A stretch of DNA of 58,157 nucleotides, taken from Acidimicrobiia bacterium. Lineage in GTDB: Bacteria > Actinomycetota > Acidimicrobiia > Spongiisociales > UBA11373. Location: positions 1 to 58,157 of the forward strand of contig JAFGCH010000045.1 of NCBI GenBank assembly GCA_016932695.1, in the 5' to 3' direction. The notes beneath the pieces are model-generated. The model did not search any database and had not been told where the DNA came from. It worked only from the letters and a program-made list of their open reading frames with translations. Within the stretch, counting starts at the first letter, position 1; each line of letters opens with the position of its first letter. The translations under genes and the position numbers were made by a program. Positions 4,126 to 51,914 of the stretch are shown piece after piece.

Positions 4126-4144
4126 GGCCCGCCGAAAGGAAATC

Positions 4145-10762: not shown

Positions 10763-10788
10763 GCCGGCCGACGGTCCCGGGTGTACCG

Positions 10789-37376: not shown

Positions 37377-37613
37377 TCAGGCTGCCGCCCCGGCCGGGGG
37401 CCGGAAAGCCACGATGCCGGCCTGCTCCAGAGCCAGGCCGATCTCCAGCAGAAGATGCTCCCCGCCCCGGCGGCCGATCACCTGCAATGAGGGGGGCGGC
37501 TCGTTGGGGAAGGCCACCGGGGCGGTCAAAGGGAGGGCCAGGGCGGGATGCCCGCCGTGGTTCACCGGGGCGGTGAAGATGGATAGGGCCCGGCGGTAGG
37601 GAAGGGGGCCTTC
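37377..37613 (-). pseudogene. Amidase, 3' fragment (split by the mobile element)
   Basis: The last 78 or so codons of an amidase-signature protein: GPLPYRRALSIFTAPVNHGG, then HPALALPL, SLQVIGRRGGEHLLLEIGLALE and a short tail to the TGA at 37377. This is the C-terminal part missing from the fragment at 50741-51914. It has no start of its own with a ribosome site; a GTG at 37565 is internal. Joining the host flanks at the shared CTTC (37610-37613 with 50741-50744) gives a continuous frame and a protein of about 468 aa, usual for the family. Confidence 0.88.
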
Positions 37614-37636
37614 AGCACCCTTGTCACTATCTTCCC
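37592..37636. other. attL (left attachment site)
   Basis: Host amidase sequence up to CTTC (37610-37613), then the element arm at 37614-37636. Read on the minus strand, the arm is GGGAAGAT-AG-TGACA-A-GGG-T-GCT. It mirrors the arm at 50720-50742. The crossover dinucleotide is predicted to be TC (37612-37613). Confidence 0.8.
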
Positions 37637-37645
37637 GCGCTCCCG
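37628..37645 (+). repeat. 18-nt direct repeat, copy 1
   Basis: TATCTTCCCGCGCTCCCG, identical to 41020-41037. It covers the distal part of the attL arm and nine bases beyond it. Confidence 0.95.
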
Positions 37646-37820
37646 TTCAGGATCAGGGTGGCCGCGTAGCAGCCCCGGGCGGCCAGGCGATCCAGCTCGG
37701 CCTGTATCGCATTCGTCTAGGCCATGGCGATGTCAGTGGCCCTCTTGACCCTGGCGGGCCCTTGCCTCCACTGCCGCAATGGGGAAGAAGAAGCTCCTCC
37801 TTCTTCTCTCCCTCGGACGC

Positions 37821-37852
37821 GTCACGCTCCGGCGTTCCGGCCGGAGCGTGAC
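37821..37852. repeat. 12-bp inverted repeat (hairpin)
   Basis: GTCACGCTCCGG and CCGGAGCGTGAC separated by eight bases. No T-run follows on either strand. It may be a terminator insulating the element end or a protein-binding site. Confidence 0.6.
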
Positions 37853-37962
37853 AATCCCCCTGTCGGGGAAGCCCCCCGGTGGCGTGGTTTGCGCCCCTCC
37901 CGACCTAGGTCATCAATCGGCAGACAGACCACTAGCTTGTTGCTGCTCATCGACAGACTGGG

Positions 37963-37991
37963 TGGACAGCTGAGGGAACTCGGCGTATGTT
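37963..37991 (+). promoter_or_regulatory. Promoter for the 38065 secreted-protein gene
   Basis: TGGACA (37963-37968), a 17-bp spacer and TATGTT (37986-37991). The implied leader is about 65 nt and ends with a GGGAGGTG ribosome site before the ATG at 38065. Confidence 0.5.
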
Positions 37992-38064
37992 GGTGGTGGC
38001 TTCCCAACAGCCAGTGATCGTGCGTCAGTGAAGGATGGTGCTCGCTGACGAAGGGAGGTGCACG

Positions 38065-38799
38065 ATGACACGGGCAAGACGGGTCCGCGTGCTTCTGTCA
38101 GGGGCCCTGGTGATCGCGGCCGCAGTCGTGCTGTTGGCAGCCCCCTCGCCTGCCGACGCAGCTGTTCCGTGCGGCGATGCAGACTGGGCCTGGTACTTCG
38201 ATGGGGTGTACGAACAGCCGGCATCCAGCGCATACGCCGCTAGGGCAACCATACGCGAGAGGAACATAGCCCTGTGCTCGAATGCTTCTGGGGTCACGGC
38301 TGGCGCCTTGGCCTGGACCATGCTTACCGACAGTACGTACTCGGGATACGCGCAGATTGGCTACGCGGAGTACCCGGCCTACACAACGACTCGGCGCTTC
38401 TGGGAATACAACGATGGGGAAGGCTGGTGGAACCGCCTGAGGTTCGCCGACATAGCCGCCGGGACCGACCATGTCTACGAGGTTGTGTACTCCTTCACCT
38501 ACGGGACTGTTGGCATGCTCGTCGATGGCTCGCTCAAACAGACGACGCCGTTCAGCATTGAATTCGGTGAGTGGCCGACGCCCTGGCAAGGCCAGTGGAT
38601 GGGCGAGACCTGGGATCGGGGCGATGACGTCCCAGGAACATCTACCGCCAAAGCCCGGTTCGGATCGGTGGGTGTGGTCGTGCAACGCGCCGGCCCGTAT
38701 GTGAACCCGCGCAACGTCGGCACGGTGCAGTCGCTCACGGTGTACAAGTTCCAGTGGGTCTCGCAGCCGACGGTCTTCAACATCTGGACGCAGAGGTGA
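38065..38799 (+). CDS. Secreted protein of unknown function
   Basis: 244 aa. Signal peptide: basic TRARRVR start, hydrophobic core, and a likely cut after ADA near residue 33. The mature part is rich in Trp, Tyr, Gly and Thr, with RNIALCSNAS, YSGYAQIGYAEYPAY and WEYNDGEGWWN, and only two cysteines. It looks like a beta-rich exported protein; no family was recognised. The ATG at 38065 was chosen over the GTG at 38035 because of its ribosome site. First of four exported-protein genes in a row on the plus strand. Confidence 0.7.
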   Translation: MTRARRVRVLLSGALVIAAAVVLLAAPSPADAAVPCGDADWAWYFDGVYEQPASSAYAARATIRERNIALCSNASGVTAGALAWTMLTDSTYSGYAQIGYAEYPAYTTTRRFWEYNDGEGWWNRLRFADIAAGTDHVYEVVYSFTYGTVGMLVDGSLKQTTPFSIEFGEWPTPWQGQWMGETWDRGDDVPGTSTAKARFGSVGVVVQRAGPYVNPRNVGTVQSLTVYKFQWVSQPTVFNIWTQR

Positions 38800-38804
38800 C
38801 GCCA

Positions 38805-39314
38805 ATGAGTAGGAAAGTCGTTGCTCGCTGTTGGGGGGGCGCCGCAGTAACCGTGTTGGTCGCAGTCGGAGGCCTGCTTCTTGCCTCGGCGGCGCACTCG
38901 GAACCGCCCGTTGAACTCGCCGCCGCTGTGCCCGACGATGTTGTCGCAGGCATGGGCTCCATGGGCTGCCAGCTGTCACCGGCGCCGGCTGACGCCTCTC
39001 TGCTGGCCAAGGTAGGCCCCATCGAGGCGTTGGCCGCAGCCCAGGCGGAGCTCGCATCCAAACCGAAGCCAAACTCAGCGGCGTTCGCCCTGTACTCGGA
39101 CACAGTCACGCGGGCGGTCAACGAGCAGGGCGACCCCTACGGTCCCTTGCTGGGCCCCCAGAAACTCCTGGTGTACGTCTTCGTGTTCGACGGGCTGGAG
39201 CTACCTCCTTCCGGACCCTATGGCAGAACCGGTACGACGATCCTTCACCACGAGATCGTGATGCTGATCGACGCCTCGACGGGCGAGTGGGTGCTCGACG
39301 GAACTTTCCGCTGA
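38805..39314 (+). CDS. Exported protein of unknown function
   Basis: 169 aa. N-terminal signal/anchor (about residues 8-30, with cleavage possible after SAAHS). The mature part ends in YVFVFDGLELPPSG, HHEIVMLIDASTGEWVLDG, a beta-rich C terminus typical of small exported proteins with no known role. It starts six bases after the previous stop, so it is in the same operon. Confidence 0.65.
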   Translation: MSRKVVARCWGGAAVTVLVAVGGLLLASAAHSEPPVELAAAVPDDVVAGMGSMGCQLSPAPADASLLAKVGPIEALAAAQAELASKPKPNSAAFALYSDTVTRAVNEQGDPYGPLLGPQKLLVYVFVFDGLELPPSGPYGRTGTTILHHEIVMLIDASTGEWVLDGTFR

Positions 39315-39449
39315 GGCAGTGCCGCTTGCCCCCGAAGGCGGACCGCCCCCGTCACCGGCCCGACTCGTCAGCATGAGGCGATGCGCGGTGATGGTGCCCC
39401 GTAAGTGCCAGATCGGAACGCCTCCTGTGCGCAGCGAGGCAGCGGGTGG

Positions 39450-39455
39450 TACGAT
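39450..39455 (+). promoter_or_regulatory. Possible -10 box for the 39485 gene
   Basis: TACGAT, 29 bases before the ATG, matches the -10 consensus seen at three other genes. No clear -35 box. The gap from 39315 to this box shows nothing else. Confidence 0.32.
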
Positions 39456-39484
39456 CTGAGGCACTGGCAGAACCAGGGGGCACC

Positions 39485-40012
39485 ATGAAGCGTTGGGGCG
39501 TACTTCTCGTGTCGGTGCTTCTGTTCGGATGTCTAGTTCCCGCCGCGATGGCTGGCGGCACCTACTACCCCTCTGATTGCCACAAGACGGCCGTTGGACC
39601 GTACTGGGGCAATGGGGGAGGGGGTTCGCAGAACTGCTATCTCGGATACGACCGGTACTGGAACTCCGGCACGTACGTCCAGGGCATACAGCGCATTCTC
39701 ATTGGAGAAGGGTGCTTGGGCGAAGCGCCAGATGGCTACTTCGGCCCCGTTACGCGGCTCGCAGTAGCGTGCTATCAGATCAGGTACAACTTGAACGTTG
39801 ACGGGTATGTCGGTTGGTACACATGGGGCTGGTACGGTGGGTTCCAGGGTCGCCTCTACGACGTGACGACGATCGGGGACTACTGGTACTACAAGATTCC
39901 TGGGTACTCGAACTTCCAGTTCAGGATATACGCATGGGGGGATCAGACATGGTCTACGCGAACGCTGAGCGGCGGTAGTTTCACCCTGTTTCAGACCTCA
40001 GGCCCGCGGTGA
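39485..40012 (+). CDS. Secreted peptidoglycan-binding-like protein
   Basis: 175 aa. A signal peptide (KRWGVLLVSVLLFG, cut near AAMA-G at about 23) is followed by a domain resembling PG_binding_1: VQGIQRILIGEG, APDGYFGPVTRLAVACYQ and LNVDGYVGWYTW, where DGxFGPxT and VDGxVGxxTW are family marks. The C-terminal part is rich in Tyr, Trp and Gly. It probably attaches to the cell wall. There are three to four cysteines, which could pair once exported. Confidence 0.75.
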   Translation: MKRWGVLLVSVLLFGCLVPAAMAGGTYYPSDCHKTAVGPYWGNGGGGSQNCYLGYDRYWNSGTYVQGIQRILIGEGCLGEAPDGYFGPVTRLAVACYQIRYNLNVDGYVGWYTWGWYGGFQGRLYDVTTIGDYWYYKIPGYSNFQFRIYAWGDQTWSTRTLSGGSFTLFQTSGPR

Positions 40013-40062
40013 GACGAGCGGGGGCAGACACCAGAGAGGTGGCTAAGGAAGGGTGCTGGAAG

Positions 40063-40776
40063 ATGAACACCTCAGTGGGGCACACTGCAATGCCAGGGTC
40101 CGAGTCTCCAAGGCGCTCCCGTCTGCCGCTGGCAGTCGCCGCTCTCGTAGTAGTGGCAGCGGTGGTGGTCGGTGTGGTCCAAGCAGGAGATGTAGGAGCC
40201 AGGAGAGCCGTCTTTGAGGATGACAGCGTCAGCGACTACCTCGCGAACGAAGACAACCGTCCTGAAGTAGCAGAGGTACAATCGGGTCCTCTCGTCGTCG
40301 AGGCGCGTGCCGCCGGAAGCGCCGCGTTCGCGGCGCTTCTCACTCCCTTTGTGCCTGACGGAGCCGTGCTCTCCCATAACGCCCATTTGACTGCCGGGGA
40401 CGGCTTCGAAGCTGATGAGGCATGGTTCGAGCTTGCTGACGGTGCCGTGCTGTTGATCAGTCGGAGCTATGTCGGTTCGGACTATCACATGCCCTCAGCG
40501 GCGGCACTCATGGGCAGGTCTGGAGGGGTGGAGTACTGGGACAATGGGATTGAAGCAGCCGTGTCCGCCACCCCCTACTTCGCGGAGATCAAAGCCTACG
40601 TTGATGGCTGGCTCCTTACCATTGCGGCCCAGGAAGGACCGGTATGGTTCGGTGAAGGCGAGCCTCCAAGTGGCTTCTTCAAAGAAGGGCGGCGCGGGGT
40701 GGTTCCGGACCTCTCCATTCTACGAGCGCTCGCTCGGAAAATCGTCGACTCCGAGAGCATTCTGTCCGAGGGATGA
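40063..40776 (+). CDS. Membrane-anchored exported protein of unknown function
   Basis: 237 aa from the ATG at 40063. A GTG at 40009 overlapping the preceding stop would add 18 residues. One TM segment (about 22-42) leaves a long C-terminal domain outside, with EVQSGPLVVEARAAGS, DEAWFELADGAVLLISRSYV and a late PVWFGEGEPPSGFF. No family recognised. Last of the four exported-protein genes. Confidence 0.62.
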   Translation: MNTSVGHTAMPGSESPRRSRLPLAVAALVVVAAVVVGVVQAGDVGARRAVFEDDSVSDYLANEDNRPEVAEVQSGPLVVEARAAGSAAFAALLTPFVPDGAVLSHNAHLTAGDGFEADEAWFELADGAVLLISRSYVGSDYHMPSAAALMGRSGGVEYWDNGIEAAVSATPYFAEIKAYVDGWLLTIAAQEGPVWFGEGEPPSGFFKEGRRGVVPDLSILRALARKIVDSESILSEG

Positions 40777-41174
40777 ATCCTGGGGCGGGCCAGAGTGCGT
40801 GAGGGCGCCTGGCGGAGGCACCGTTGGAGTCCAGCGGGAAACTCCCGAGCATCGACAGGTCCCTGACTAGCCTCGCTCGACCGGCTCCTCGGTCCCGGGT
40901 CTGATTGGCATGGGGCTGGCCATGACTAGGCCCTACCGGCCCGTGTGGGGCCACCGCCAGGAATAGTGACGCTAGGAGGCGCCCTGGTCGGCGTGACGTG
41001 CCCTCAGTACCCACGCGCATATCTTCCCGCGCTCCCGGAGCGGCTGGGCGACTCGGCTCCTCTGACATGGGTGGCCTGACGTTCGCTTCTTCGCGCGACC
41101 CGCGGCCCGGTGTCCGTGTCGCTACTCTCGGGCGACAGGAGGCTTGTGTCAGCCTCAGACCAAGGGGGAAGAGC
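40777..41174. other. Non-coding 398 bp with a second attachment-like half-site
   Basis: No convincing gene. The stretch 41004-41037 repeats the left arm of the element (see the entry there). A possible TACTCT box lies shortly before the small gene at 41175. Confidence 0.5.
41004..41037 (+). repeat. Second attL-like half-site
   Basis: TC (41004-41005) is followed by an arm (41006-41028) matching 16 of 23 positions of the attL arm at the same spacing. The match then continues exactly through GCGCTCCCG to 41037. The last 18 nt (41020-41037) are identical to 37628-37645. Confidence 0.7.
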
Positions 41175-41393
41175 ATGGCGACGCCGGTCTACTCTCGTCC
41201 GGTTGGGAAGCGGTACCTCGGCAATACCAACGAAATGGAGGTTCACGACCTCTCGAACGAGAGGTCGGCGTGTCAGGTCGGCGAGATCATCGCAGCCAGA
41301 CACGCGGTCACCTTCTCGCCCGACACTCTGCAGCAGGCAAGGGCTGAGCGCTACGACAACTGCGCCCACTGCATCGGCGGCTCGACCCGCTAA
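41175..41393 (+). CDS. Small conserved cysteine-containing protein
   Basis: 72 aa. YLGNTNEMEVHDLSNERSAC, then QVGEIIAARHAVTF, PDTLQQARAERYDNCAHCIGG. I recognise this as a small conserved actinobacterial/bacterial type: the lone Cys plus NCAxCIGG and nearby His residues suggest metal or cluster binding. The function is unknown. The ATG at 41175 follows GGGGGAAGAG. It stands alone between the secreted-protein genes and the ImmA/IrrE pair. Confidence 0.72.
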   Translation: MATPVYSRPVGKRYLGNTNEMEVHDLSNERSACQVGEIIAARHAVTFSPDTLQQARAERYDNCAHCIGGSTR

Positions 41394-41619
41394 CAGCCCC
41401 ATTACTGACCCCACGCGCCTGCAGGTCGGCCGCCAGCCGAGTGCCTCGTAGGCAGTAGTCCCGACGGGGGTGCTTCACCTCTGCCGCAATGGTTTCGCGG
41501 GCCCGCTCTGCTCTTCGCTCTTCGGGTCGTTGCATGACCTGGAGCCAAGTGGCAACATGCCTGGTGGAGCCCGCTGGGTCACCAGAGCATCGGCCTTCCG
41601 CTCCCAACACCCCTTCTGC

Positions 41620-41649
41620 TTGTTTCTTTACCTCGTTTGAGGCTACAAT
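41620..41649 (+). promoter_or_regulatory. Promoter for the 41677-42321 gene pair
   Basis: TTGTTT (41620-41625), an 18-bp spacer and TACAAT (41644-41649) in a locally AT-rich stretch, giving a leader of about 20 nt to the ATG at 41677. The gap from 41394 to 41619 shows no gene. Confidence 0.45.
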
Positions 41650-41676
41650 AGGCGCAGTCAACGGTTGGAGCACGCG

Positions 41677-42315
41677 ATGGAGATTGCGACAGCACCATGG
41701 GTCTCGGGAGAGAGCGCAGGCGTCCAGCTCGCGGAGTTGGGGCTCACTGAAGAGCTTCTGCAGGCTGCTTTGCAGCGTGGGGAGATTGACCGTGCCACCT
41801 GCACGGCGAACGACCCTTCGTACCTTCCGGGGATGCTCGCGCAGGGGAGGTCGGTGCGTGCCCTCCGTGAGGCACTCCTGCCGGCAGGGTGGAGTCGTGA
41901 CGACGTGCGGGGGTTGCCCCTGGTGGTGAGCCCGAACGGGGATCTGGCCTTGACTGTGGCTACTGGTGATGAAGGAACGGGAGATCCGCACCGTCCCGCG
42001 AGCTCCAAGCACCCGAAGGGGGCGGCTACCGCCATGCTTGTTGCCACCAACCAACTGCTCCTGGACCTTCCAGGTGTTGAGGGGGCTAGGCGGCCTGACT
42101 TCACCACCTGGGTGCTGCTTTTCCGGCGGGCCCCTGGCCAGATTGTCGCCGAGTTGTCGCTACCGCGCACGATTACGAGAGAAGGGAAGATCGTGGAGTG
42201 GGAGCAGAGAATCATGCTGACGGCCATCCCGCTGGACGGTGACATGGCTACGGTCCGGCCTGTTGAGCCCGAGCCCGATGCGGGCGTGGTAGTGCGGCCC
42301 AGGGACCGGGGCTGA
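41677..42315 (+). CDS. Partner protein of the XRE-ImmA/IrrE regulator, function unknown
   Basis: 212 aa, soluble, no signal peptide. Notable segments are DPSYLPGMLAQGRSVRALRE, LVATNQLLLDLPGVEGARRP, TTWVLLFRRAPGQIVAELSL and WEQRIMLTAIPLDG. No family recognised. It ends five bases before the HTH-metallopeptidase gene, the arrangement of two-gene modules in which an ImmA/IrrE protease acts on or with a co-encoded partner. A TTG at 41665 is an alternative start. Confidence 0.6.
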   Translation: MEIATAPWVSGESAGVQLAELGLTEELLQAALQRGEIDRATCTANDPSYLPGMLAQGRSVRALREALLPAGWSRDDVRGLPLVVSPNGDLALTVATGDEGTGDPHRPASSKHPKGAATAMLVATNQLLLDLPGVEGARRPDFTTWVLLFRRAPGQIVAELSLPRTITREGKIVEWEQRIMLTAIPLDGDMATVRPVEPEPDAGVVVRPRDRG

Positions 42316-42320
42316 GTGAG

Positions 42321-43415
42321 ATGTTCGAGCCGACTAGGTTGGTTCTGGCGCGCGCCCGACGCGGGCTCACCAAACGACAGCTGAGCGAACGTAGCGGGCT
42401 TTCGATTCGAACGCTCACAGCACTGGAGCAGGGCCCTGACCCTGCGCCGACTGACCGCACGGTGGAGGCCCTCAGCTCGTCGCTCGGTTTCCCCAGGGAG
42501 TTCTTCTCTGGTGAGGAAATGGAAGCGCTGCCCGCGGAGGCAGCGACCTTCAGAGCGCTCACGCGGCTGTCGGCTCGCGAGAGGGACGCGGCTCTGGCGG
42601 CGGGGCGACTCGCGTTGGCCCTGAGTGAGTGGATCGAGAGCCGCTTTGAACTGCCGCAAGTTGACATCCCACAGCTGGCCAGTGAAGCGCCGGAGGCAGC
42701 GGCCGAGGCGGTGCGCGCCCGATGGGGTATGGGGCTGGGCCCGATACCCAACCTGGTCCATCTGCTCGAAGCCCACGGAGTCAGGGTGTTCTCACTGGCG
42801 ACCGACTGCAGCGAGGTCGACGCCTTCTCTCTTTGGAGGGACGGGAAGCCTTTCGTGTTCCTGAACACGAACAAGTCCGGGGAAAGAAGCAGGATGGACG
42901 CAGCCCACGAACTGGGCCACCTCGTGCTCCACCCTGAGTACGACCGGAGCGTGTCACGTCAGTTGGAGAGGGATGCAGCCCTGTTCGCCTCCGCCTTCCT
43001 GATGCCGCAGGCAAGCCTCATCGGCAGGCACGGCATGTACCCCACATTGGACGAGCTGGTTCACGGGAAGCGGGAGTGGTCGGTGTCGCTAGCCGCCTAC
43101 GTGCAGCGCCTCTACACGGCCGGGCTCATCACCGAGTGGCACCACCGCTCGCTGTTCATCGAGCTCTCCAAACGCGGATACCGATCGGGCGAGCCAGACG
43201 GCATCGAGCGTGAGCGGTCTCAGATTCTGGAGCAGGTCTTCGGCTACCTCCGGCGTGAAGGGGTGACTCGCAGCGACGTGGCCCGGGCCCTCGCCCTCTC
43301 GAAACAGGACCTCGACGCCCTCGTATTCGGCCTGGTGTTCTCGTCGGTCGACGGCGCCGCGGAGCGCCCGGGCCGTGCGCAGCGGGGTCACATCCGGGTT
43401 GTCGGCGCCCAGTAG
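42321..43415 (+). CDS. XRE-family HTH regulator fused to ImmA/IrrE metallopeptidase
   Basis: 364 aa. The N-terminal XRE helix-turn-helix (about 1-60) has LVLARARRGLTKRQLSERSG and LSIRTLTALEQG. The middle ImmA/IrrE (DUF955) domain has the zinc motif HELGH in DAAHELGHLVLHPE (about 195-208) and the later ERDAALFASAFLMP. The C-terminal part (about 250-364) is helical. Such proteins control mobile elements by cleaving a repressor or partner after stress. It is the likely regulator of this island. Confidence 0.88.
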   Translation: MFEPTRLVLARARRGLTKRQLSERSGLSIRTLTALEQGPDPAPTDRTVEALSSSLGFPREFFSGEEMEALPAEAATFRALTRLSARERDAALAAGRLALALSEWIESRFELPQVDIPQLASEAPEAAAEAVRARWGMGLGPIPNLVHLLEAHGVRVFSLATDCSEVDAFSLWRDGKPFVFLNTNKSGERSRMDAAHELGHLVLHPEYDRSVSRQLERDAALFASAFLMPQASLIGRHGMYPTLDELVHGKREWSVSLAAYVQRLYTAGLITEWHHRSLFIELSKRGYRSGEPDGIERERSQILEQVFGYLRREGVTRSDVARALALSKQDLDALVFGLVFSSVDGAAERPGRAQRGHIRVVGAQ

Positions 43416-43555
43416 TAGGAGGCGAAAGTCGAGCGATGCAGGGAGTCGCCCCCCTTGGGGTTGGGCCCGTGTCTCGGGCTGGACTCCTCGCTTTCACAGC
43501 CACCCGCCCAGCATGGGGTGATAGCCTTGTTGCCAGGCGTGTTTCTGGCCGCGTA

Positions 43556-44365
43556 TCAAGTCGAGTTGCCGGGTTTGGGTGGGGGTGGCCATTCCCAGAC
43601 CCGTCGCGTGGGGTCGTGGGGGTAGATGCCGTGTTGGAGGCGGTGGGGACCAGCGCTGTCGGGTGCTCGCATGAAGGGTCCGGCGAGGAGCGCCTCGTAG
43701 ACGATCAGGCTGCCCGGGCGGTCTTCGAGGTGGCGGCGGAGGAGTCCGAGCCGGTGGTCGGTGAGGCTCACATAGATGCCGGGCGGGTCCTTGGCGAGCT
43801 CGCGGTCGAGCTGGTCGTAGGGGCCGTCGATGCGGGCGAAGGCTGCCTGGTCTACGGATGGGTAATCAGATGGGGGTTCGGATGGCTCCTCCGGCCCAGT
43901 GACGGGAAGGGTGTTGTCCTTGTCCTTGGCGAGGCGGCGGGTGTCGAAGAGATGGATCCGCCGGCAGTAGGAACAGAGCAGCCAGAACCCCGGGCGGCCT
44001 TCGTGGGCAACCAGGCGCAGGTCCACAACGAGCCACCGGTCGGGCCGCCATCCGGACGGCTTGGACGGCGGCCGGGCCACCTGGACGACCGCGAGCTTGC
44101 GGTCGTGAACGTCGAGCAGCTTGGAGGGCCGGACCCGGGGCCGGGGAGCCCTTCCCGCGGCTACGGGGCAGTCCCAGCGGACCCGCCGGCGTGGCTCGAA
44201 CAGCGTCTGGTACAGCTCGATACCCGGCCGGCGGAGCTGGTCGGCCTGTTCGGGGGTGGCGTCGGTGGGGGTGTGGCGAATGCCGGGGGTGAGCCAGGCG
44301 GCGTCGTGGAGGGAGAGCAGTGCCGAGATCATGCCCTCCCGCCAGAGCGGGTCGGCTGGGGTCAT
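43556..44365 (-). CDS. Hypothetical protein with CxxC and a Pro-rich linker
   Basis: 269 aa, not recognised. Features: WLVVDLRLVAHEG, a CSYC pair (about residue 131), a Pro/Glu/Ser linker (about 155-172, PSEPPSDYPS), and a second part IDGPYDQLDRELAKDPPGIY with LGLLRRHLEDRPGSLIVYEA. The opposite strand holds a longer open frame, but its composition is poor. The ATG at 44365 has a TAGGCT -10 box six bases upstream. Its linker DNA recurs at 45027. Confidence 0.6.
   Translation of the reverse strand: MTPADPLWREGMISALLSLHDAAWLTPGIRHTPTDATPEQADQLRRPGIELYQTLFEPRRRVRWDCPVAAGRAPRPRVRPSKLLDVHDRKLAVVQVARPPSKPSGWRPDRWLVVDLRLVAHEGRPGFWLLCSYCRRIHLFDTRRLAKDKDNTLPVTGPEEPSEPPSDYPSVDQAAFARIDGPYDQLDRELAKDPPGIYVSLTDHRLGLLRRHLEDRPGSLIVYEALLAGPFMRAPDSAGPHRLQHGIYPHDPTRRVWEWPPPPKPGNST
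43856..43894 (-). repeat. Dispersed repeat, copy 1 (inside the 43556 gene)
   Basis: Begins with the 20-mer GGATGGGTAATCAGATGGGG (plus strand), exactly repeated at 45027-45046. Similarity continues to about 43894. It encodes the EEPSEPPSDYPS part of the linker. Confidence 0.85.
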
Positions 44366-44371
44366 GCGGTC

Positions 44372-44377
44372 AGCCTA
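44372..44377 (-). promoter_or_regulatory. Putative -10 box for the 43556-44365 gene (leaderless)
   Basis: TAGGCT on the minus strand, exactly six bases before the ATG at 44365. The rest of the gap up to 44485 shows no other feature. Confidence 0.45.
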
Positions 44378-44485
44378 CGTTCCGGGGGTGACAGGTGTCT
44401 CGCCGTCGGGTCGTTGACCGGGCATGGGTGGGGTCCTAGATTGGTGGGCAGTCCGGTAGTGGCTTCCCCGCCAGCCCGGTCGCAA

Positions 44486-44566
44486 GAGAAGTGGGGTAAC
44501 GAGCGGTAGCCGCCTGCCCTTCGCGGGAAGGGAGGGCGGCTTGTGCCGTCTCTAACCCCACTTCTC
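44486..44566. repeat. Nested inverted repeat over a gene start
   Basis: Outer arms GAGAAGTGGGGT (44486-44497) and ACCCCACTTCTC (44555-44566) are perfect complements. Inside, 44508-44541 forms a second hairpin: a 7-bp stem AGCCGCC/GGCGGCT, a two-base mismatch, then CCCTTC-GCGG-GAAGGG. The GTG at 44543 lies between the two structures, so its ribosome-binding region would be buried in RNA. Confidence 0.8.
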
Positions 44567-44788
44567 AAGTCCCGACGCCGTTGCCGGGCGTCTCTCATCC
44601 TTGATGACCTCGGTGTCTCTCAGGCCAAGCTGACGGATGCTCTTGGGGTCTCTACCACCTCACTCTCGCGGATGCTGCGGGGCGGACAGCCGCTCCCGGC
44701 CGGGTTCGAGTTCGCGCTCCGGGCTTCGATCGGTGCGGACGGCACCGACAGGATGCTGGCCGCCATCGAGGCGGAGGCGGACCAATGA
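44543..44788 (+). CDS. Small helix-turn-helix-like protein
   Basis: 81 aa. LGVSQAKLTDALGVSTTSLSRML reads as an XRE-like helix-turn-helix, followed by RGGQPLPAGFEFAL and an acidic helix. Possibly a transcription regulator of the element. The GTG start lies in the nested inverted repeat, with no visible ribosome site outside it. The stop overlaps the next ATG (ATGA). Confidence 0.6.
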   Translation: MPSLTPLLKSRRRCRASLILDDLGVSQAKLTDALGVSTTSLSRMLRGGQPLPAGFEFALRASIGADGTDRMLAAIEAEADQ

Positions 44789-45036
44789 GGGTCGTCGTCT
44801 GCCTCCAAGAACGCGTCGACCCGGCCGCCGCCCGCGCCCTGGCCAGGCTTCTGTTCGCGAGCGAATCCCCACCGGACCCGATCCTGAACTCCGCTGCAGA
44901 GCGCCGAGCACCGGGCCGGGCGGGTGGCGAACTAGCCGGGCCACGCATCAGCCATACGCAGAGCAGGAAGCGGCGAGCCGGGGGCCGTCGGCCCGCTGAG
45001 CGCCCCCCACAGCCCGGAGAGGCGTCGGATGGGTAA
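44785..45036 (+). CDS. Small protein of unknown function
   Basis: 83 aa: RVVVCLQERVDPAAARALAR and then an Arg/Pro/Gly-rich tail without structure. ATGA overlap with the HTH gene supports co-translation, which is the main reason to accept it. Its last codons fall in the dispersed repeat at 45027, which supplies the TAA stop, so the C terminus may be a truncation product. Confidence 0.45.
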   Translation: MRVVVCLQERVDPAAARALARLLFASESPPDPILNSAAERRAPGRAGGELAGPRISHTQSRKRRAGGRRPAERPPQPGEASDG

Positions 45037-45066
45037 TCAGATGGGGTGTTGGATGGCCCCCTCCGG
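45027..45066 (-). repeat. Dispersed repeat, copy 2
   Basis: Exact 20-mer shared with 43856-43875, then about 20 more bases with scattered differences. The reading frame matching copy 1 gives GPSNTPSDYPS but continues into no recognisable gene. Confidence 0.85.
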
Positions 45067-45392
45067 GCACCGCCCGCCCACAGACAGCCCGCGCCATTGG
45101 CCCCTTCCGGCTCGACTTGATAGACCTCGGAAACTCCGGACCCTTACGGACGCCCGAGACCCCCTGGAGTATCTCCAGGAGTGCTTCTAACGGGTGTGTC
45201 GGGACTGTTGCGAGCCGCGGCGGCGGGGCAGCCGCCGCCGCAACCCAGCTGACGTGCTGACCTGGGGATACGCGGCGCACAGCGACGAGCCAGGAGGGGA
45301 CGTTCCCCCTGATCAGCGGCTTAGCCCCTAAGCACCCACGCCTTCATCGCGTGCAGTTGGTATCCACGCCCTGGTCGACCCCAAGCAGTCCC
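45037..45392. other. Non-coding 356 bp
   Basis: Holds the end of the dispersed repeat, a GC-only hairpin at 45207-45244 (8-bp GCGGCGGC/GCCGCCGC stem with outer TTGCG/CGCAA pairs) and a small GCTTAG/CTAAGC hairpin near 45317. No gene is seen. Confidence 0.5.
45207..45244. terminator. Strong GC hairpin between convergent genes
   Basis: GCGGCGGC pairs with GCCGCCGC around a six-base loop, extended by GTTGCG/CGCAAC with a small bulge. It sits between the plus-strand small genes and the minus-strand lipoprotein gene, where a bidirectional terminator would be expected. No T-run. Confidence 0.4.
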
Positions 45393-46070
45393 TCAGGGTG
45401 TTGTCGTCTCCAGTCTGTCGGCCCACTCTCTCGCCGAAACATCCCGCGACGGATCGAAGGGCGGGAGGATTGACGCCGTTCCCTGATTCGTCAGCACTAG
45501 CGCGTAGGGTGAGCTGCCGAGTTGCACTAAGGCCTCTTCCAGGGCGCTCCCCGATGCGGACTCGACCCGCAAATCGATGACCCATGCCACCGGTATCCCT
45601 GGCACAACGCGCCCGTTCTCAGCGAAGATGCCCTCTATTGTGTGTTCCGCTGAGTCAAGCGTTTCATCCCACGAGTCCTTGAGGCCCAAGACCGCCACCG
45701 TGACCCGATCCTCGCCCAGCACGTAGAAATGGATCGCCGTAGGGATCAAGCCTGCCGGGGCAAGCGTCTGTTCGATGAGGTCGAAGAGCTCATGGCCGTC
45801 GAAGCCGGGACTGGGCGCCACAAGCGCAGCCGTACGGCCGGTCAGCACCTCCTCAACCGAAATCGTCCCCGATTCACACCGCATCTGAGCGAAGTCCACG
45901 GCGAACGCCTCGGCGCCGCCCAGAAGAAGAAACTCGGCCGGTTGAACCTGCGGGCAGGTGGCAACGTCAGGTGGCAGCCCGCAGGCCCCCAGCCAGATAC
46001 TCAGCGCGACGGTGATTGCGCTGGACGGCCAGCACCCCCATCGCCTCACCCTTGCGAGACGCGGTTGCAT
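45393..46070 (-). CDS. Lipoprotein sharing a module with its neighbour
   Basis: 225 aa. N-terminal basic region, hydrophobic core and the lipobox LGAC (about residue 30) predict a membrane lipoprotein. The rest resembles residues about 50-240 of the protein encoded just upstream: SVEEVL versus SADEIL, LGEDRVTV versus LPGEHRTT, and ILPPFDPSRD versus LLPPLDPARD, near the end. The module is unknown. The ATG at 46070 overlaps the upstream gene by 25 bases. Confidence 0.68.
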   Translation of the reverse strand: MQPRLARVRRWGCWPSSAITVALSIWLGACGLPPDVATCPQVQPAEFLLLGGAEAFAVDFAQMRCESGTISVEEVLTGRTAALVAPSPGFDGHELFDLIEQTLAPAGLIPTAIHFYVLGEDRVTVAVLGLKDSWDETLDSAEHTIEGIFAENGRVVPGIPVAWVIDLRVESASGSALEEALVQLGSSPYALVLTNQGTASILPPFDPSRDVSAREWADRLETTTP

Positions 46071-48013
46071 GTTGCGTTGTCCGTTGGAGTGATGAAGCCT
46101 GTTTGGTAATCGACCCAACCGTAGAGCGCCATGGCATCAATGCGGAGCTGATCCGCTGCATCGGTGTTGAACAGCTTGGCGCGAATCGAACTGTGCTGAT
46201 AGTCCGCGGAGTTTGTAGCACCGTGGAGAGAATCAAAGCGACACAGGTAGTACCACCCGTCGTTTGGGATCGTGAAGGTTGGACTGGGTCTTGTCTCGAC
46301 GGGATACACCCCATCTCGACCTTCCCAAGCGAGCTTGCCGTTGCACGGATTGCCAGTCAAGCACTGTACGACGTACTCCACCGAGAAGTCATCCCCGGGT
46401 TCGATCGTGCGCGTGACGGTGCGGTAGGCATACCCAGTGCTGTAGCCGACCTGTGGTCGTATGGTGACGCGTCCAGGGGGTTCGGGACCGTTGGTACCGG
46501 TGTAGCACCAGTAGTCGACATGTCCCGCGGCAAACCCCCACTCTCCAGGGCAGGGTGAGAAGGTGTTATCGGTTATGTAGGAGCCGCCGTAGTAGAGGAA
46601 GTAGCTCTGGGGGGTGAGCAACTCCCGCGTCTTGTTGTACCGGTGGCCGTAGTTCTCGAACGAGCACCATGCCGGATCGGGCAGGGACCCGTTGTGGATG
46701 GGGCAATCGGTGGTGATTGCTCCGGCAACTGACCGCAGCTGCACGTGGGTCTGCGTGACAGACGTTGGCTCTATTCCGATGTCAATGTGGTATTCGGTGT
46801 TAGCAGCGATGGCCGAGGCGTTCCCGGTGACGGCTGCGTAGTTGTGCCACATGTACTGGGCATCGTCAATGATCAGGTCCGTTGTGCAGACAGAGGGGAG
46901 GTCGCAGTTGAAGTACGTGGGGTTTGTCGCGTACCCGTGGCCCCATTCGTCCTCGGTGAAGAACTCCCACTCGTACGAGGCATACACGCATTCGCCGCCA
47001 GCGCACCACCCGGCATCATGCCCACTGACTCGAAAGGCCGAGCCGAAGTAGATGTCGGATTCCAGCACATTGACGTCCTCCTGGCTCCGATAAAAGAAGT
47101 CGGGATCTGCCCACAGGGGAGTCCAGGTCATCACGCCGTACCGGTCGATGTGTCTCTCGTATGCGTACTCGCTGAGAAGCGAGTCGCCCGACCACGTCGT
47201 TGCAGCGACCGACTGGCCGCTAGCACGCAGGCGATCAGAGACCCGTCCCGCGGCGAGATTGGCGTCCCGAGCCGGGTCGAGGGGTGGAAGTAGGGAAACG
47301 TCCATCAGGCTGCGAGCAGAGCCAAGCGCGAGACCGCGCCGTCTCAGCACGTCGATAGCTAGCGAAGCGGAGCCCGGCTCGAACGCAACGCCGATTCCGT
47401 AGACCAGATAGGACCCGCTCTCCAGTTGGCCGAGCATGCCTCTCGCATCAGACACGTAGGCAGCGCTGTTAGCCAGCGTCTCAGCGGCATCGCCGGGTTC
47501 AAGGACGCTGAGAACGGCTGCCTGCTGCTGTTGGTTCAGCGACGCGACAGAAGCCTCGATGTTCTCTAGCAGGGCGTCCCGCTCAAAGGTCTTCCACTGG
47601 CCCAGCGCCTGCTCGAACGTCTCGTCGTCTCGAACTACGAACCAGGACGTCGTCGTGCGGTGTTCGCCAGGAAGGGCGATCAGTGCTTCGCGGATGCGTG
47701 CACCCTCGGGCAACTCAGCCCGAAGCTGTCGAACGGCGTCTTCCCGGAAACCTCCACGAATCATCGCGACGAGTATCTCGTCAGCGGAGACTGATGCGGC
47801 GGTCAACCTGCTTCCCTGCTCAAGCAGTTGCTCGAATTGCGCGGAGTGTGCCTGTTCCGCAGGCAAGTCAAGAGCGATGTCAAGCACATCTGCCATGTCA
47901 GACTCGCTCGTCCCGGTCTGCGAACTGGAAGCGGGACCGGGGATCACCAACTGAAGAATCAAGAGGGATCCGAGCAGCGAGCCAAACACCAGCCTCTTCC
48001 AGGGAAACCGCAT
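46046..48013 (-). CDS. Large secreted protein of unknown function
   Basis: 655 aa. Signal peptide (KRLVFGSLLGSLLILQLVI, cut near PASSS). The N-terminal module (about 50-240) is paralogous to the downstream lipoprotein. The C-terminal two thirds (about 260-655) are rich in Tyr, Trp, Gly and cysteines (WCAGGECVYASYEWEF, YFNCDLPSVC, CPGEWGFAAGHVDYWC), suggesting disulfide-bonded beta structure outside the cell. No enzyme motif seen. GGGGGAG precedes the ATG at 48013. Confidence 0.68.
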   Translation of the reverse strand: MRFPWKRLVFGSLLGSLLILQLVIPGPASSSQTGTSESDMADVLDIALDLPAEQAHSAQFEQLLEQGSRLTAASVSADEILVAMIRGGFREDAVRQLRAELPEGARIREALIALPGEHRTTTSWFVVRDDETFEQALGQWKTFERDALLENIEASVASLNQQQQAAVLSVLEPGDAAETLANSAAYVSDARGMLGQLESGSYLVYGIGVAFEPGSASLAIDVLRRRGLALGSARSLMDVSLLPPLDPARDANLAAGRVSDRLRASGQSVAATTWSGDSLLSEYAYERHIDRYGVMTWTPLWADPDFFYRSQEDVNVLESDIYFGSAFRVSGHDAGWCAGGECVYASYEWEFFTEDEWGHGYATNPTYFNCDLPSVCTTDLIIDDAQYMWHNYAAVTGNASAIAANTEYHIDIGIEPTSVTQTHVQLRSVAGAITTDCPIHNGSLPDPAWCSFENYGHRYNKTRELLTPQSYFLYYGGSYITDNTFSPCPGEWGFAAGHVDYWCYTGTNGPEPPGRVTIRPQVGYSTGYAYRTVTRTIEPGDDFSVEYVVQCLTGNPCNGKLAWEGRDGVYPVETRPSPTFTIPNDGWYYLCRFDSLHGATNSADYQHSSIRAKLFNTDAADQLRIDAMALYGWVDYQTGFITPTDNATCNRVSQG

Positions 48014-48384
48014 GACACTCCCCCAATCCTGCCGCCAATGCGACACGAAGAAAGCCAGTTCGAGTCGCCGTCCCTCCGGGTTGTAGCCCGGAAACCCGGG
48101 GGCAGATCACACCCCCCAAGATGTGTGGGGCAATTGGTCCGCCAGAACTAGGGGCCAAAGGCCCCAAACCCGGCTTCGGTCTTTCCGAGCGTAGGGTTCT
48201 TGCCGGCCTCCCTTGACGACCGTTCGCATCTGGCATCCCTGGCAGTTCGGTCGGCGGCACCCCAGGAGCCCTCATGGCCTCTGGCGGGTGTGAGGCGCTT
48301 GCCGGCTTGTCCGGATTCGATGCCAGAGCTGCCGCCCAGGCTGCTGCTCACCAGACACGTACACTCTTAGCCAGGCTGGGGCGT
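48014..48384. other. Divergent intergenic region, 371 bp
   Basis: Lies between the two divergent exported-protein genes. It holds small hairpins, for example GGGGCC-AAA-GGCCCC at 48151-48165, and a possible TACACT box at 48360-48365 for the plus-strand gene. Open frames here are weak and were not called. Confidence 0.45.
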
Positions 48385-48792
48385 ATGCGCTGTTCGACGG
48401 TATCCTCGGCCGGGGTGGCCAAAGATCCGAATCGGGTTGCCTGGATCGGTCCGACACTGGTGGCACTGGTGCTCCTGTCGACGGCAGTGGCGGCCATCAC
48501 GGTGACGCTCGGACGCGCGCCCTCCGAATCCTTTCCAACTGATCACGGGGTGACGGACTCCTGCGAGGAGTGGGTAAGGTGCGCTGCCGAGACGATCGAA
48601 GCCCACCCGGGGACGTTTGCCGCGCAGAACGGATTCGAGATTGAAACGGCCGGACCCCGCTGGATCGTCGTGAGAAGCGGCTTGCTCACGACTCGTCTTG
48701 AAATGGCTGATGGCCACCTCGCATACTGGCGTTTCGGGGGCTGGCATTCGGTCCCCTGGGACTGTCCCGGAGTTCGCCCTGAGAATCACTGA
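48385..48792 (+). CDS. Membrane-anchored small exported protein
   Basis: 135 aa from the ATG at 48385. One TM helix (about 20-42, WIGPTLVALVLLSTAVAAI) with an outside domain containing SCEEWVRCAAETIEAHPG, RWIVVRSGLLTTRLEMADGH and YWRFGGWHSVPWDCPG. Three cysteines lie outside. No family recognised. The frame opens at 48274; the later start gives a clean N-in topology. Confidence 0.55.
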   Translation: MRCSTVSSAGVAKDPNRVAWIGPTLVALVLLSTAVAAITVTLGRAPSESFPTDHGVTDSCEEWVRCAAETIEAHPGTFAAQNGFEIETAGPRWIVVRSGLLTTRLEMADGHLAYWRFGGWHSVPWDCPGVRPENH

Positions 48793-48989
48793 GCCGCCCC
48801 GGCGCTGCATCCCCGAGACAGGCACCTCGCTGACCAGCCGGCAGAGATCGCCTCTTCGACCGGTACCACGCCTGCTGCTCACTGCAAGCGCAGATGGGCA
48901 GACGCGGATGCTATGAACTCCCTGACGTGGGCCGGCCGCCGGCCCCCCCGATACCCCATGCGATCGGGTCTTGTGTCAGTGGCGGGGGG

Positions 48990-48995
48990 TATTGT
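48990..48995 (+). promoter_or_regulatory. -10 box of the recombinase operon (leaderless)
   Basis: TATTGT is followed by six bases and the ATG at 49002. It would drive the 83-aa gene and the recombinase together. Confidence 0.5.
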
Positions 48996-49001
48996 GCGTG
49001 T

Positions 49002-49253
49002 ATGAGGACTCTTCTGGTCTTCGATGTGGAGTTGGATGAGGGCAAGCGCCCGTCGACCCGGTTCCGCCGGTTGGATCGCCTGGTGCGGCTCGCGGGCAGC
49101 TTTGTGGGCCGGCTGAACGGGGTTCGGGCGGTGCACAGCGTGTCGCTTTGTGACCCGGCGCAGGCTGAGTTGCTGCGGCCTGAGGTCCGCTATGACGGCC
49201 GTCAGGTGGCACCGACACTCGACCAGCTCGGGTACGAGCGCACGGTCCGATGA
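49002..49253 (+). CDS. Small protein coupled to the recombinase
   Basis: 83 aa. RTLLVFDVELDEGKRPSTRF, then VGRLNGVRAVHSVSLCDPAQ and a short C-terminal part. Not recognised. Its stop overlaps the recombinase ATG (ATGA), so it is made in step with the recombinase and could be a directionality or control factor. It has few hydrophobic segments and is probably cytoplasmic. Confidence 0.65.
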   Translation: MRTLLVFDVELDEGKRPSTRFRRLDRLVRLAGSFVGRLNGVRAVHSVSLCDPAQAELLRPEVRYDGRQVAPTLDQLGYERTVR

Positions 49254-50752
49254 GGCGGGCGGCGCTGTATCGGCGGGTGTCGACACCCGGCCAGGTGGAC
49301 GGGTTCTCCCTCGCCGACCAACTGGAGCGGCTTTCTCGGCTGGCGGAGGCTGAGGGGTTCGGCTGGGAGGATTTCTGCGACCCGGGCCACTCGGGGGAGA
49401 AGCTGGAGGAACGGCCTGCCCTGATGGGCCTGCTGGGCCGCCTGGATGAGTTTGAGGCGGTGCTGGTGGTGGATGAGTCCCGGCTGGCCCGCAGCGAAGC
49501 GGTCGCTTTTCTGATCCGTCAGCGGCTGCGGGAGGCGGGGGTGCGGTTGGTCACCCCGCAGGGGGAGACCGACCTGTCTGATCCGGATGAGAGTCTGATG
49601 TCGGCGGTGCGCACCTTGTTTGGTGTGGCGGAGCAGACCCGCCGCACCCAGCGGATGACCCAGGGGTTGGACCGGGCCGCCCAGGAGGGCTTGTGGACCG
49701 GGGGTCCGGCCCCGGTCGGCTACCGGCTGGTCAAGACCCCCGCCGGCCACACCACCTTGGAGGTAGACCCAGAAGGGGCGGCGTTCGTTCGGATGGTGGT
49801 TGGGATGGTAGTAGACGAGGGCCTGTCGGTGTATGAGACAGCGAAGCGGATCAACGCTCTCGGCTACCGCACCCGAAAGGGGACTCCCTGGGAGCACCGG
49901 AACCTCGGGCATCATCTCCGACGCCGTCACCTGCTGGGGGAGATCCCCTACAACTCGGCCGGCGGCCCGGTTGTTCGCCAGTTCCCCCCGCTAATCCCCG
50001 AGGCCCGCTTCGCCGATTTACAGGCAGCCCTCCGGAGAAATGCCCGACCCGCCCCGGACAAACGGCACCTCTACCCGTTTTCGGGCAGGGTGGCCTGCGA
50101 ATGTGGGGGCCGCCTGGTCGGAACCTGGCGAAACGACCGGGCAGTCCGCTGCTACGTGTGCAACCGGCACGTGAACGCGGCGATCACCGGTCGGCGCTGT
50201 ACCGCCCGGCCGCACTGGCACCGGGCCGACCGGCTCGAAACGCTGCTGTGGGAGCCGATCCGGGCCACCCTCGCCGACCCGGACCGTCTCCAAGCCGCCG
50301 CCCTCGCCCACACCGGGCAGGAGGGCCCTGACCCGGCCGAGCTCGACGCCCGCATCGCCGACCGGCGCCGCCGTCTCGACCTTGTCACCGACGAGCGGGT
50401 CCGTACCTTCCGGGACGCCCGCCACCTGGGGCTCACCAACCCTGAGATCCGCCGCATCCTCAGCCAGCTCTCCGAGGAACACGACACCCTCACCAGAGAG
50501 CTCCGCACCCTCGAGCAGCAGGCCCGGCTCGCCGCCAGCCGCACCGACCCGATTGCCCAGGCACACCGGCTAGTTCAGGCGGCTGCCGTCGCCCTCGGCC
50601 ACCCCACCCTCGGAGACCAGGCCGCCCTCATCGCCCTCCTCGACATCCAAGCCACACCGGTCGAAGGCGGATACGAGGTCACAGGGTCGATCCCACTCAC
50701 CACAGAGGACGGGACCCCTGGGAAGATGCTGACAGGGGAGCTTCCTCGGTGA
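49250..50752 (+). CDS. Large serine recombinase (integrase)
   Basis: 500 aa. N-terminal resolvase domain with the catalytic Ser at about residue 11 (YRRVSTPGQ) and the conserved VDESRLARS; recombinase domain (about 165-270, GPAPVGYRLV and LNALGYRT-like INALGYRTRKG); zinc ribbon CECGG...CYVC (about 285-310); coiled coil (about 370-440). It catalyses site-specific integration and excision between attP and attB. The last codons lie past the crossover: integrated, it ends ELPR. In the excised circle the frame would instead run 18 residues past EL, to 37669. Confidence 0.93.
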   Translation: MRRAALYRRVSTPGQVDGFSLADQLERLSRLAEAEGFGWEDFCDPGHSGEKLEERPALMGLLGRLDEFEAVLVVDESRLARSEAVAFLIRQRLREAGVRLVTPQGETDLSDPDESLMSAVRTLFGVAEQTRRTQRMTQGLDRAAQEGLWTGGPAPVGYRLVKTPAGHTTLEVDPEGAAFVRMVVGMVVDEGLSVYETAKRINALGYRTRKGTPWEHRNLGHHLRRRHLLGEIPYNSAGGPVVRQFPPLIPEARFADLQAALRRNARPAPDKRHLYPFSGRVACECGGRLVGTWRNDRAVRCYVCNRHVNAAITGRRCTARPHWHRADRLETLLWEPIRATLADPDRLQAAALAHTGQEGPDPAELDARIADRRRRLDLVTDERVRTFRDARHLGLTNPEIRRILSQLSEEHDTLTRELRTLEQQARLAASRTDPIAQAHRLVQAAAVALGHPTLGDQAALIALLDIQATPVEGGYEVTGSIPLTTEDGTPGKMLTGELPR

Positions 50753-50764
50753 CCACCTCGTCGC
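50720..50764. other. attR (right attachment site)
   Basis: Element arm at 50720-50742 (GGGAAGAT-GC-TGACA-G-GGG-A-GCT), crossover TC at 50743-50744 inside CTTC, then host amidase sequence. The arm matches the inverted attL arm at 19 of 23 positions. Confidence 0.8.
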
Positions 50765-51914
50765 GGCCGATCTCCTTGCGGGTCGCGGCGGTGGTGGGCA
50801 GGAGGACGGCGTCGTGGCCGGAGAGCAGGTCGTCGAGTGCCCGGCGCACCCGGCCCCGCCAGGCCAGGCCGGCGGCGTGCTCCGCCGGGCCCATGGCGAG
50901 GGCCCGCTCCAGGCGCGGGCGGACGTCGGGCCCGTAGCGTTCCGGATGGCTCTGCATCCAGGCCCGATGCACCGCCGCGGCCTCCGGGTAGGTGGATTCC
51001 TCCAGCAGGCCGGGAGGTGCCAGGTCCGGGGAGTGGGGCTGGTGCACGTCGGCCCCGGCCTGCTCCAGGGCGGTGAGGGCGAAGCGAAAGCCGTCCCGGA
51101 CTTCACGGGACACCGGGTGGGCGGCCCAGGGCAGCGGGACGGCAAAGCGGCAGGCGGCTAGATCGGCAGGTTCCCGCGGCGCGACCACGACCTCGGGGAG
51201 CGACCAGCGGTCGGCGGGGTCGGGGCCGGCGAGGGCCAGGTATGCCAGGGCGGCGTCGCCCACCGTGCGGGTCAGCGGGCCGACGGTGTCCAGCGACGCG
51301 GCCAGCGGGAAGACCCCGGTGAGGGGGATGCGGCCGTGGGTCACCTTGAGTCCCACCAGGCCGCAGAGGGCCGCCGGGACCCGCACCGAGCCCCCGGTGT
51401 CCGTTCCGATGCCCACCGCGGCCAGGCCGGCGGCTACCGCCGCCGCCGAGCCGCCGGAAGAACCGCCGGCCGACGTGCTCGGATCCCAGGGGTTCCGTAC
51501 CGGCCCCCACCACAGGTTCTCGCTCGAGAAGCCGAAGGCGAACTCATGCAGGCCGGCCCGGCCGACGATGACCGCCCCGGCCGTTTGCAGGCGCCGCACC
51601 ACCGTGGCCGAGGCCGACGACACCCGGCGATAGAAGGAGGAACCACAGGCGGTGGGAAGGCCCTCTTGGTCGATGAGATCCTTGAGCGCTACCGGTACGC
51701 CGCACAGCAAGCCGGGGGGCTCGCCGGCGGCGAGGCGGCGGTCGAGGTCGGCGGCCGCGGCGAGGGCGCCGTCGGCATCGACCAGGGTGAAGGCGTTGAG
51801 ATCACCGCGATGAGCGATGGCCTCGAGGGATGCCCCGACCACTTCGGAAGCGCTTATGTCCCTGGCCGCTACCGCCGCAGCGATCTCGGCGGCGGTAGCG
51901 GCGAAGCGCCTCAC
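50741..51914 (-). pseudogene. Amidase, 5' fragment (split by the mobile element)
   Basis: About 391 host-encoded codons of an amidase-signature enzyme; past the junction the frame runs into element DNA to a stop at 50697. The Ser-Ser-Lys triad is complete: Lys in GVPVALKDLIDQEG, cis-Ser in TSAGGSSGGSAAA and nucleophile Ser in GTDTGGSVRVPAA. The C-terminal 78 residues are at 37377-37613. Activity of the truncated protein is doubtful because the missing part closes the core sheet. GTG at 51914 overlaps the stop of the DUF3048 gene. Confidence 0.88.

Follow-up and report, generated by a model that had tools for sequence, protein, structure and literature searches.

A probable gene-cassette array of a large serine recombinase in a family of uncultured Acidimicrobiia

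Introduction

Integrons are the known collectors of single-gene cassettes in rows, and they rely on one kind of recombinase. SCC elements form tandem composite islands, but the elements are long and go to a single target, rlmH. A further kind of accretion, in which related ICEs and IMEs are joined in tandem at att sites and some members are decayed (CIMEs), is described in a portion of PMC5704250. Mycobacteriophages, according to an extract of PMC9262239, have integration-dependent switches in which attP lies inside a coding gene and integration alters the C-terminus of its product. Well-studied serine integrases act on attP and attB, and a passage of PMC3783163 has hybrid sites in parallel as blocked unless a helper is present. 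As for Actinobacteria, they are reported in one section of PMC9024848 to be without complete integrons, integrons as a whole being nearly absent from them.

The subject here is a stretch of 58,157 nucleotides from an Acidimicrobiia bacterium (contig JAFGCH010000045.1 of assembly GCA_016932695.1), called the window in what follows. I propose that a half-site at position 41004 is, very probably, the worn junction at which two units meet in a gene-cassette array, the array itself being the work of a large serine recombinase (LSR). The array system is of more interest than the single half-site. If the proposal is true, then one group of uncultured bacteria may own a second, independent way to collect genes in rows, cassette arrays would have evolved more than once and on an unrelated enzyme, the sites would form a new class of recombination sites, and there would be a natural case where a swapped protein tail may set the directionality of a serine integrase. 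No cassette-array system based on a serine recombinase appeared among the results listed in searches of open PMC papers; a precedent in print may nevertheless exist.

An island within an amidase gene

The island occupies positions 37612-50742 of the window, followed by a second copy of its TC core at 50743, and it interrupts an amidase gene. When it is removed and the flanks are joined, there results an open frame collinear, with no gap, with the uninterrupted amidase of a genome of the same genus (G001), at 81% identity over 157 amino acids. The C-terminal part of the split gene lies at 37377-37611 on the minus strand, and its last 20 or so bases (37592-37611) provide the left junction with its B half. 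The N-terminal part lies at 50745-52145, also on the minus strand; its first bases are the B' half and its far end, the gene start, is approximate. The left junction (37612-37636, plus strand) consists of the TC core at 37612-37613 and a 23-nt P' arm, and the right junction (50720-50744, plus strand) of the P arm at 50720-50742 and the core at 50743-50744. The sequence-only reading had put the right end at 50742, which in fact still belongs to the right arm, as its final base. The attP rebuilt from the two ends is a 48-bp palindrome about TC, its arms identical at 19 of 23 positions.

Two units may be distinguished within the island. Of the four genes in the first (37612-41003, plus strand), three have signal-peptide-like starts and the other an N-terminal membrane segment, as judged by eye; one of the four has a PG_binding_1 domain. 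The second (41004-50742, plus strand) carries the recombinase gene (49250-50752, plus strand), which has the domains Resolvase, Recombinase and Zn_ribbon_recom and whose stop codon belongs to the host half of the right junction. Two genes at 41665-43415, just within this unit, match the PADLOC models RmrT (E = 9e-54) and RmrA (E = 2e-144), a candidate phage-defence pair. Further on, the segment 43554-45121, which encodes a protein of 269 amino acids with no family match, has an 85% identical inverted copy on contig C87 of the same genome (L036:8723-10286). The ends of this copy show short matches in the other direction, as expected of terminal inverted repeats; a separate search for inverted repeats found none linking the two ends of 43554-45121.

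A search of related genomes for either block of the island alone had been suggested, and neither turned up, because the first-block protein used as query (38065-38796), the only one so used, is without a relative in the 58 other genomes; among the 59 searched, only the window's own matched.

The half-site at 41004

The sequence-only reading described at 41004-41037 a repeat of the island's left end, made of TC, an arm matching at 16 of 23 positions and an extension of 18 identical nucleotides, and placed it between two blocks of genes. Direct comparison with 37612-37645 bears out the repeat: 27 of 34 positions are identical, 16 of 23 in the arm, and the last 18 nt are exact. Those 18 bases are not a random extension. 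They are codons, YLPALP, of the recombinase's tail, a matter taken up below. The same reading held that tandem insertion or accretion would be refuted by homologous islands that all had both blocks, with the repeat kept as part of a gene or promoter; the repeat is indeed genic, but the gene is that of the mobile recombinase.

The length of the exact repeat is by itself only moderate evidence, because one of 100 order-3 Markov sequences of equal length contained an exact direct repeat of at least 18 nt and because the island contains a second one, of 21 nt. More weight attaches to the position-specific evidence. Model R1, trained on five left ends that include 37612 and exclude 41004, matches 41001-41035 at 17.8 bits (E = 5e-5 in a search of 16.5 kb), and the two island ends are the only other matches in those 16.5 kb better than E = 0.39. 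The left junction at 37612 is matched by R1 at E = 3e-20 and by a family-wide junction model, R2, at E = 1e-9, though 37612 was among the training sequences of both. With at most one mismatch allowed, the arm pattern occurs exactly five times in the 2.44-Mb genome, at the two ends of the island, at 41004 and on two further contigs, and is absent from the genus's other genome. The putative junction, 41004-41037 on the plus strand, would then comprise a TC core at 41004-41005, a P' arm at 41006-41028 and the remains of a recombinase tail, QYPRAYLPALP. Only the first 11 codons of this reading follow the pattern of the family, and the half to the left of the core is degraded.

Could 41004 be no junction at all, but a copy of the left end that is partial or due to chance, a small duplication for instance, even if the arrays elsewhere are real? 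In favour of this, R2 does not report 41004 at E values up to 5, and the left half is poor: it fits the usual half only if one lost base is assumed, and 76 of 3000 random positions fit equally well. Moreover, the 18 exact bases are codons partly common to the lineage, 16 of the 18 being found on C87. I nonetheless consider a chance copy improbable, given that TC, AG.ACCC and ATCTTCCC are correctly spaced at 41004 and that the site falls between gene blocks. Then there is the arm itself, whose nearest relative among 112 arms is that of L105:9232 in G010, a member of another genus, at 19 of 23 positions, as against only 16 of 23 for 37612. This is not what a local duplication would give.

Related junctions across the family

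The arm is found on two more contigs of the window's genome, C87 and C106, and on the latter a second, weaker copy lies 1.2 kb off with one gene in between. With a 62-nt model of the left end, further genera of the family also prove to have the repeat, often in multiple copies on the same strand within a few kb. Junction matches number 151 in 14 family genomes. At a stricter cut (E of 1e-4 or less), only 11 of the 296 class genomes have a match, and all 11 are in this family, of which 12 genomes are listed; G045, from another family of the same order, has some members that are more distant. Where a recombinase relative of at least 37% identity is present, in four genomes, the matches at E of 0.01 or less number 6 (G000), 41 (G002), 21 (G005) and 20 (G010), and the ten others, of which G008 and G013 lie outside the recombinase search, have from 1 to 14 each.

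The matches are clustered and oriented. Among the 150 listed there are 64 neighbour pairs within 4 kb, with a median spacing of 1061 bp, and all 64 are on the same strand, none on opposite strands. Uniform placement would yield a mean of 4.3 such pairs, with a maximum of 11 in 500 simulations. With changing loci and matrices, position-weight-matrix scans of the fetched stretches reported successively 64, 88, 83 and 131 sites, and a reversed control gave no site at the end of each scan, the 131-site scan included. In the 83-site scan, 41004 and 50743 are below threshold and are counted separately.

Sites and arrays

Read outward from the core, the P' half is (A/G)G(C/G)ACCCCTGTCA..., followed by ACTTCACC, ATCTTCCC or AGTTG..., and the B half is GGGGCTCCTGACCT. 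The division of P' into types I, II and III is a working split, reached by repeated reassignment, and not a set of established classes. Arrays have B.TC.P' repeated, with a few instances of P.TC.P', and several end in an X.TC.B' on the same strand. Array L095, for example, has sites at 991, 2086, 2540, 3217 and 3702 before its X.TC.B' end at 4139, and L107 has sites at 8136, 8840 and 9672 before its end at 10779. Running towards lower coordinates, L106 has sites at 10680, 8720, 7877 and 7102 and ends at 5800, and L110 has sites at 11171, 10505, 9153, 7840 and 6476 and ends at 3206. In other arrays, such as L100 and L191, the X.TC.B' end is absent from the examined stretch. The longest rows have up to six junctions per run. 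Comparison of array flanks between sister genomes in search of empty sites gave nothing decisive, the sole empty site being that of the window's island.

Some left sides recur. L095:4139, L096:11427 and L140:9249 (G002) have a long left side in common, with a translation ending EATGRSPGP or EARGRSPGP, perhaps the common right end of a family of units. The left sides of L094:3852, L099:10688 and L190:14714 share a translation like (S/P)PVM.F and perhaps represent another type of unit, one with no recombinase at its end.

Units: cassettes or remnants?

Sites fall inside predicted genes in 6 of 131 cases, where 92.6 would be expected from the local coding density. The intervals between sites, once those of at least 6 kb, those of at most 60 bp and those beginning with a B half are set aside, make 71 units with a median length of 1107 bp. 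By the gene calls of an in-house codon-usage script, not a standard gene finder, 35 units have one gene, 14 have none and 22 have more than one; 47 genes are oriented with the sites and 55 against them, with 3 gene overlaps. While the left end of a unit keeps P', the right end is a B half in 65 of the 71 and a P half in 6, and a unit that carries the recombinase ends in a P half coinciding with the 3' end of that gene. A Pfam scan of 20 unit proteins found cytochrome c, glyoxalase, PemK, ParE, Fic (two), McrBC with an AAA partner, FRG, alcohol dehydrogenase, cation efflux, rhodanese, YtoQ, CAAX protease, methyltransferase, a ClpP-like protease and an RTX-repeat protein, and no match for three.

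The same unit may stand beside different neighbours, as seen with L101:2653 and L037:3130 (89% identity over 658 bases), L095:3217 and L096:8029 (97% over 475) and L100:6388 and L197:7748. The left edge of what is shared is TC: identity is 0.82-0.98 in the 45 nt after it and 0.33-0.53 in the 40 nt before. The first of these pairs, a ParE unit found in G001 and G000, has identities of 0.82 after TC and 0.47 before, and the other two have 0.96-0.98 and 0.33-0.53. The ParE unit has different neighbours in the two genomes and different halves after it, P' in one genome and a B'-like half in the other, and is similar across all 658 bases. Right edges are blurrier than left ones, the similarity between the L095 and L096 units stopping 10 bases before the next core in L095 and 56 before it in L096. 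A cation-efflux gene that adjoins junctions in two genera (L190:11784 in G004 and L200:949 in G001) has 79% DNA identity over 1086 bp.

The chief rival to the cassette reading is that the arrays are graveyards, in which whole LSR islands have accreted repeatedly at one target, each decaying to a remnant of its left end and the next inserting beside it. Tandem accretion with decayed members is documented for site-specific elements in part of PMC5704250, the recombinase tail on the left ends of units is as in remnants of LSR elements, and remnant recombinases stand at some array ends. It is difficult, however, to see decay producing 71 small and regular units (median 1.1 kb) that usually hold a single gene and whose junctions are hardly ever crossed by one. 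Nor does accretion sit well with the predominance of B over P at the right ends of units, or with the same unit appearing in different arrays with its left edge at TC. I regard it as rather unlikely, though by no means negligible.

Another possibility is that these are true integron arrays, with a tyrosine integrase (IntI) and attC sites. The one-way sites, the units of one gene and the clusters with no recombinase nearby are all in its favour. Yet no integron integrase (TIGR02249) scores above the curated cut-off in any of the 14 genomes, the sites end serine recombinase genes, and genes lie in both directions (47 and 55). Folding of the junctions, whether as RNA or in the manner of attC, was considered and rejected: four junction regions fold no better than shuffles, with z-scores of 0.05 to 1.08. 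An integron of the known kind is thus hardly credible here.

The recombinase and its tail

To return to the cassette reading, the protein encoded in the window scores above the cut-offs of PF00239, PF07508 and PF13408, the domain set of large serine recombinases. Palindromic att sites around a 2-bp core are present as well, both in the attP rebuilt about TC and in the B.B' palindromes at array ends. The protein is 61-62% identical to the recombinase of G010 and 38% identical to that of G005. In all three, which are the complete related recombinases, the gene ends in the P half at TC and takes its stop codon from the half beyond. At the very 3' end of the gene stands P.TC.B' in G010 and G005 and the P arm with TC in the window; the last codons and the stop come from the B' half (CCCCTGA) in the former two and from the host gene in the latter. 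Remnant C-terminal parts of recombinases also stop at P.TC, namely at L110:6476 (G007) and L189:13978 (G003), but by tblastn only 5 of 12 P.TC sites (11 plus the window's own) have recombinase sequence adjoining them.

A scan of the genome contigs with the single protein found no recombinase relatives; an alignment of three led to the MAGs of G010, G002 and G005. Viral contigs gave recombinase matches of only 24-30%, and phage records gave no close relative, the best among the matches listed being 28.5%. G001, G007, G011 and G012, all incomplete assemblies, have arrays but yielded no recombinase, apart from the remnant in G007. The window's genome has a second, distant serine recombinase (L038, G000:C158:1504-2646; 31%), unlinked to the junctions seen.

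The left end of the island (37613-37669, plus strand) reads QHPCHYLPALPFRIRVAA and then stop, in frame with the body of the recombinase if the island is circular. The circular form of the gene would end in ...GKMLTGELQHPCHYLPALPFRIRVAA and stop, where the integrated gene ends in ...GELPR and stop. It follows that attP would lie within the recombinase gene and that integration would exchange the last 20 or so residues of the enzyme.

The same reading is found in 105 left ends of units, which give QHPCQDFT..FSL... or QHPC.YLP...F.IRVAA and then stop. In the recombinase frame 98% of them are open for at least 14 codons and 67% stop within codons 17-26, as against 17% and 10% that stop there in the other two frames; past the arm, conservation is highest at the second codon position. 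A recombinase next to a cassette, at P.TC.P', would by this account gain a full tail, and one at the end of an array, at P.TC.B', would take its stop from B' and end in QHP or similar. I offer tentatively, as something I would doubt sooner than assert, the idea that this is the counterpart of an integron with a serine recombinase, in which every cassette brings the last 20 or so codons of the enzyme and the neighbour sets the enzyme's form, perhaps its direction as well.

What may move, and how

The mechanism I infer is the insertion of circular units by the recombinase. The enzyme would excise units as circles and insert them at B.TC.B', P.TC.P' or B.TC.P' sites. Since hybrid sites are blocked if no helper is present, at least in the passage of PMC3783163 cited above, growth of an array through B.P' units would call either for a helper or for a relaxed enzyme, unless insertion takes place at the terminal B.TC.B' alone.

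In the window, a four-gene unit (37.6-41.0 kb) would stand ahead of the recombinase unit (41.0-50.7 kb). The tandem of two related elements that was first suggested holds as structure, 41004 being readable as the left end of the second unit and tandem joining being found throughout the family; as a one-off it finds no support, since arrays recur across the family. Separate excision of the 41.0-50.7 kb part, also suggested, now seems unlikely. The live pair of sites should be 37612 and 50743, because 37612 keeps its left half, its arm and an intact tail, while 41004 has lost its left half and, after 11 codons, its tail. With the inner junction decayed in these two respects, only the whole island of 13.1 kb would be expected to move, and as one.

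Comparison with known systems

The layout of the arrays, as read from their sequences, appears integron-like, while enzyme, sites and structure of the units appear to differ. With integrons and CALINs they share small units in arrays, one-way sites (64 of 64 pairs), a single gene in the typical unit, a cargo of accessory genes (toxin-antitoxin, glyoxalase, methyltransferase and restriction genes) and clusters both with and without a recombinase gene. They differ in that no IntI exceeds the cut-off in the 14 genomes, in that the sites are B and P half-sites around a TC core and not hairpins, in that gene direction is mixed, and in that units carry the recombinase's tail.

SCC elements have in common with them a serine recombinase, and the best NCBIfam match of the window's protein is CcrB, with CcrC third. 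The scores, however, are 51.7 bits (CcrB) and 42 bits against cut-offs of 900, which makes the protein no Ccr. Moreover, the window's island is in an amidase gene, not rlmH, and the family has many loci with units of about 1 kb. The accretion of CIMEs, as given in part of PMC5704250, is alike in joining related elements in tandem at att sites with decayed members, but it is known for whole ICEs and IMEs, whereas here there are up to six junctions per run and small units that mostly end in B. Finally, the mycobacteriophage switches, in the extract of PMC9262239, likewise have attP in a coding gene and a C-terminus that changes on integration; there the enzyme is a tyrosine integrase and the gene that of a repressor, while here it would be the gene of the serine recombinase itself.
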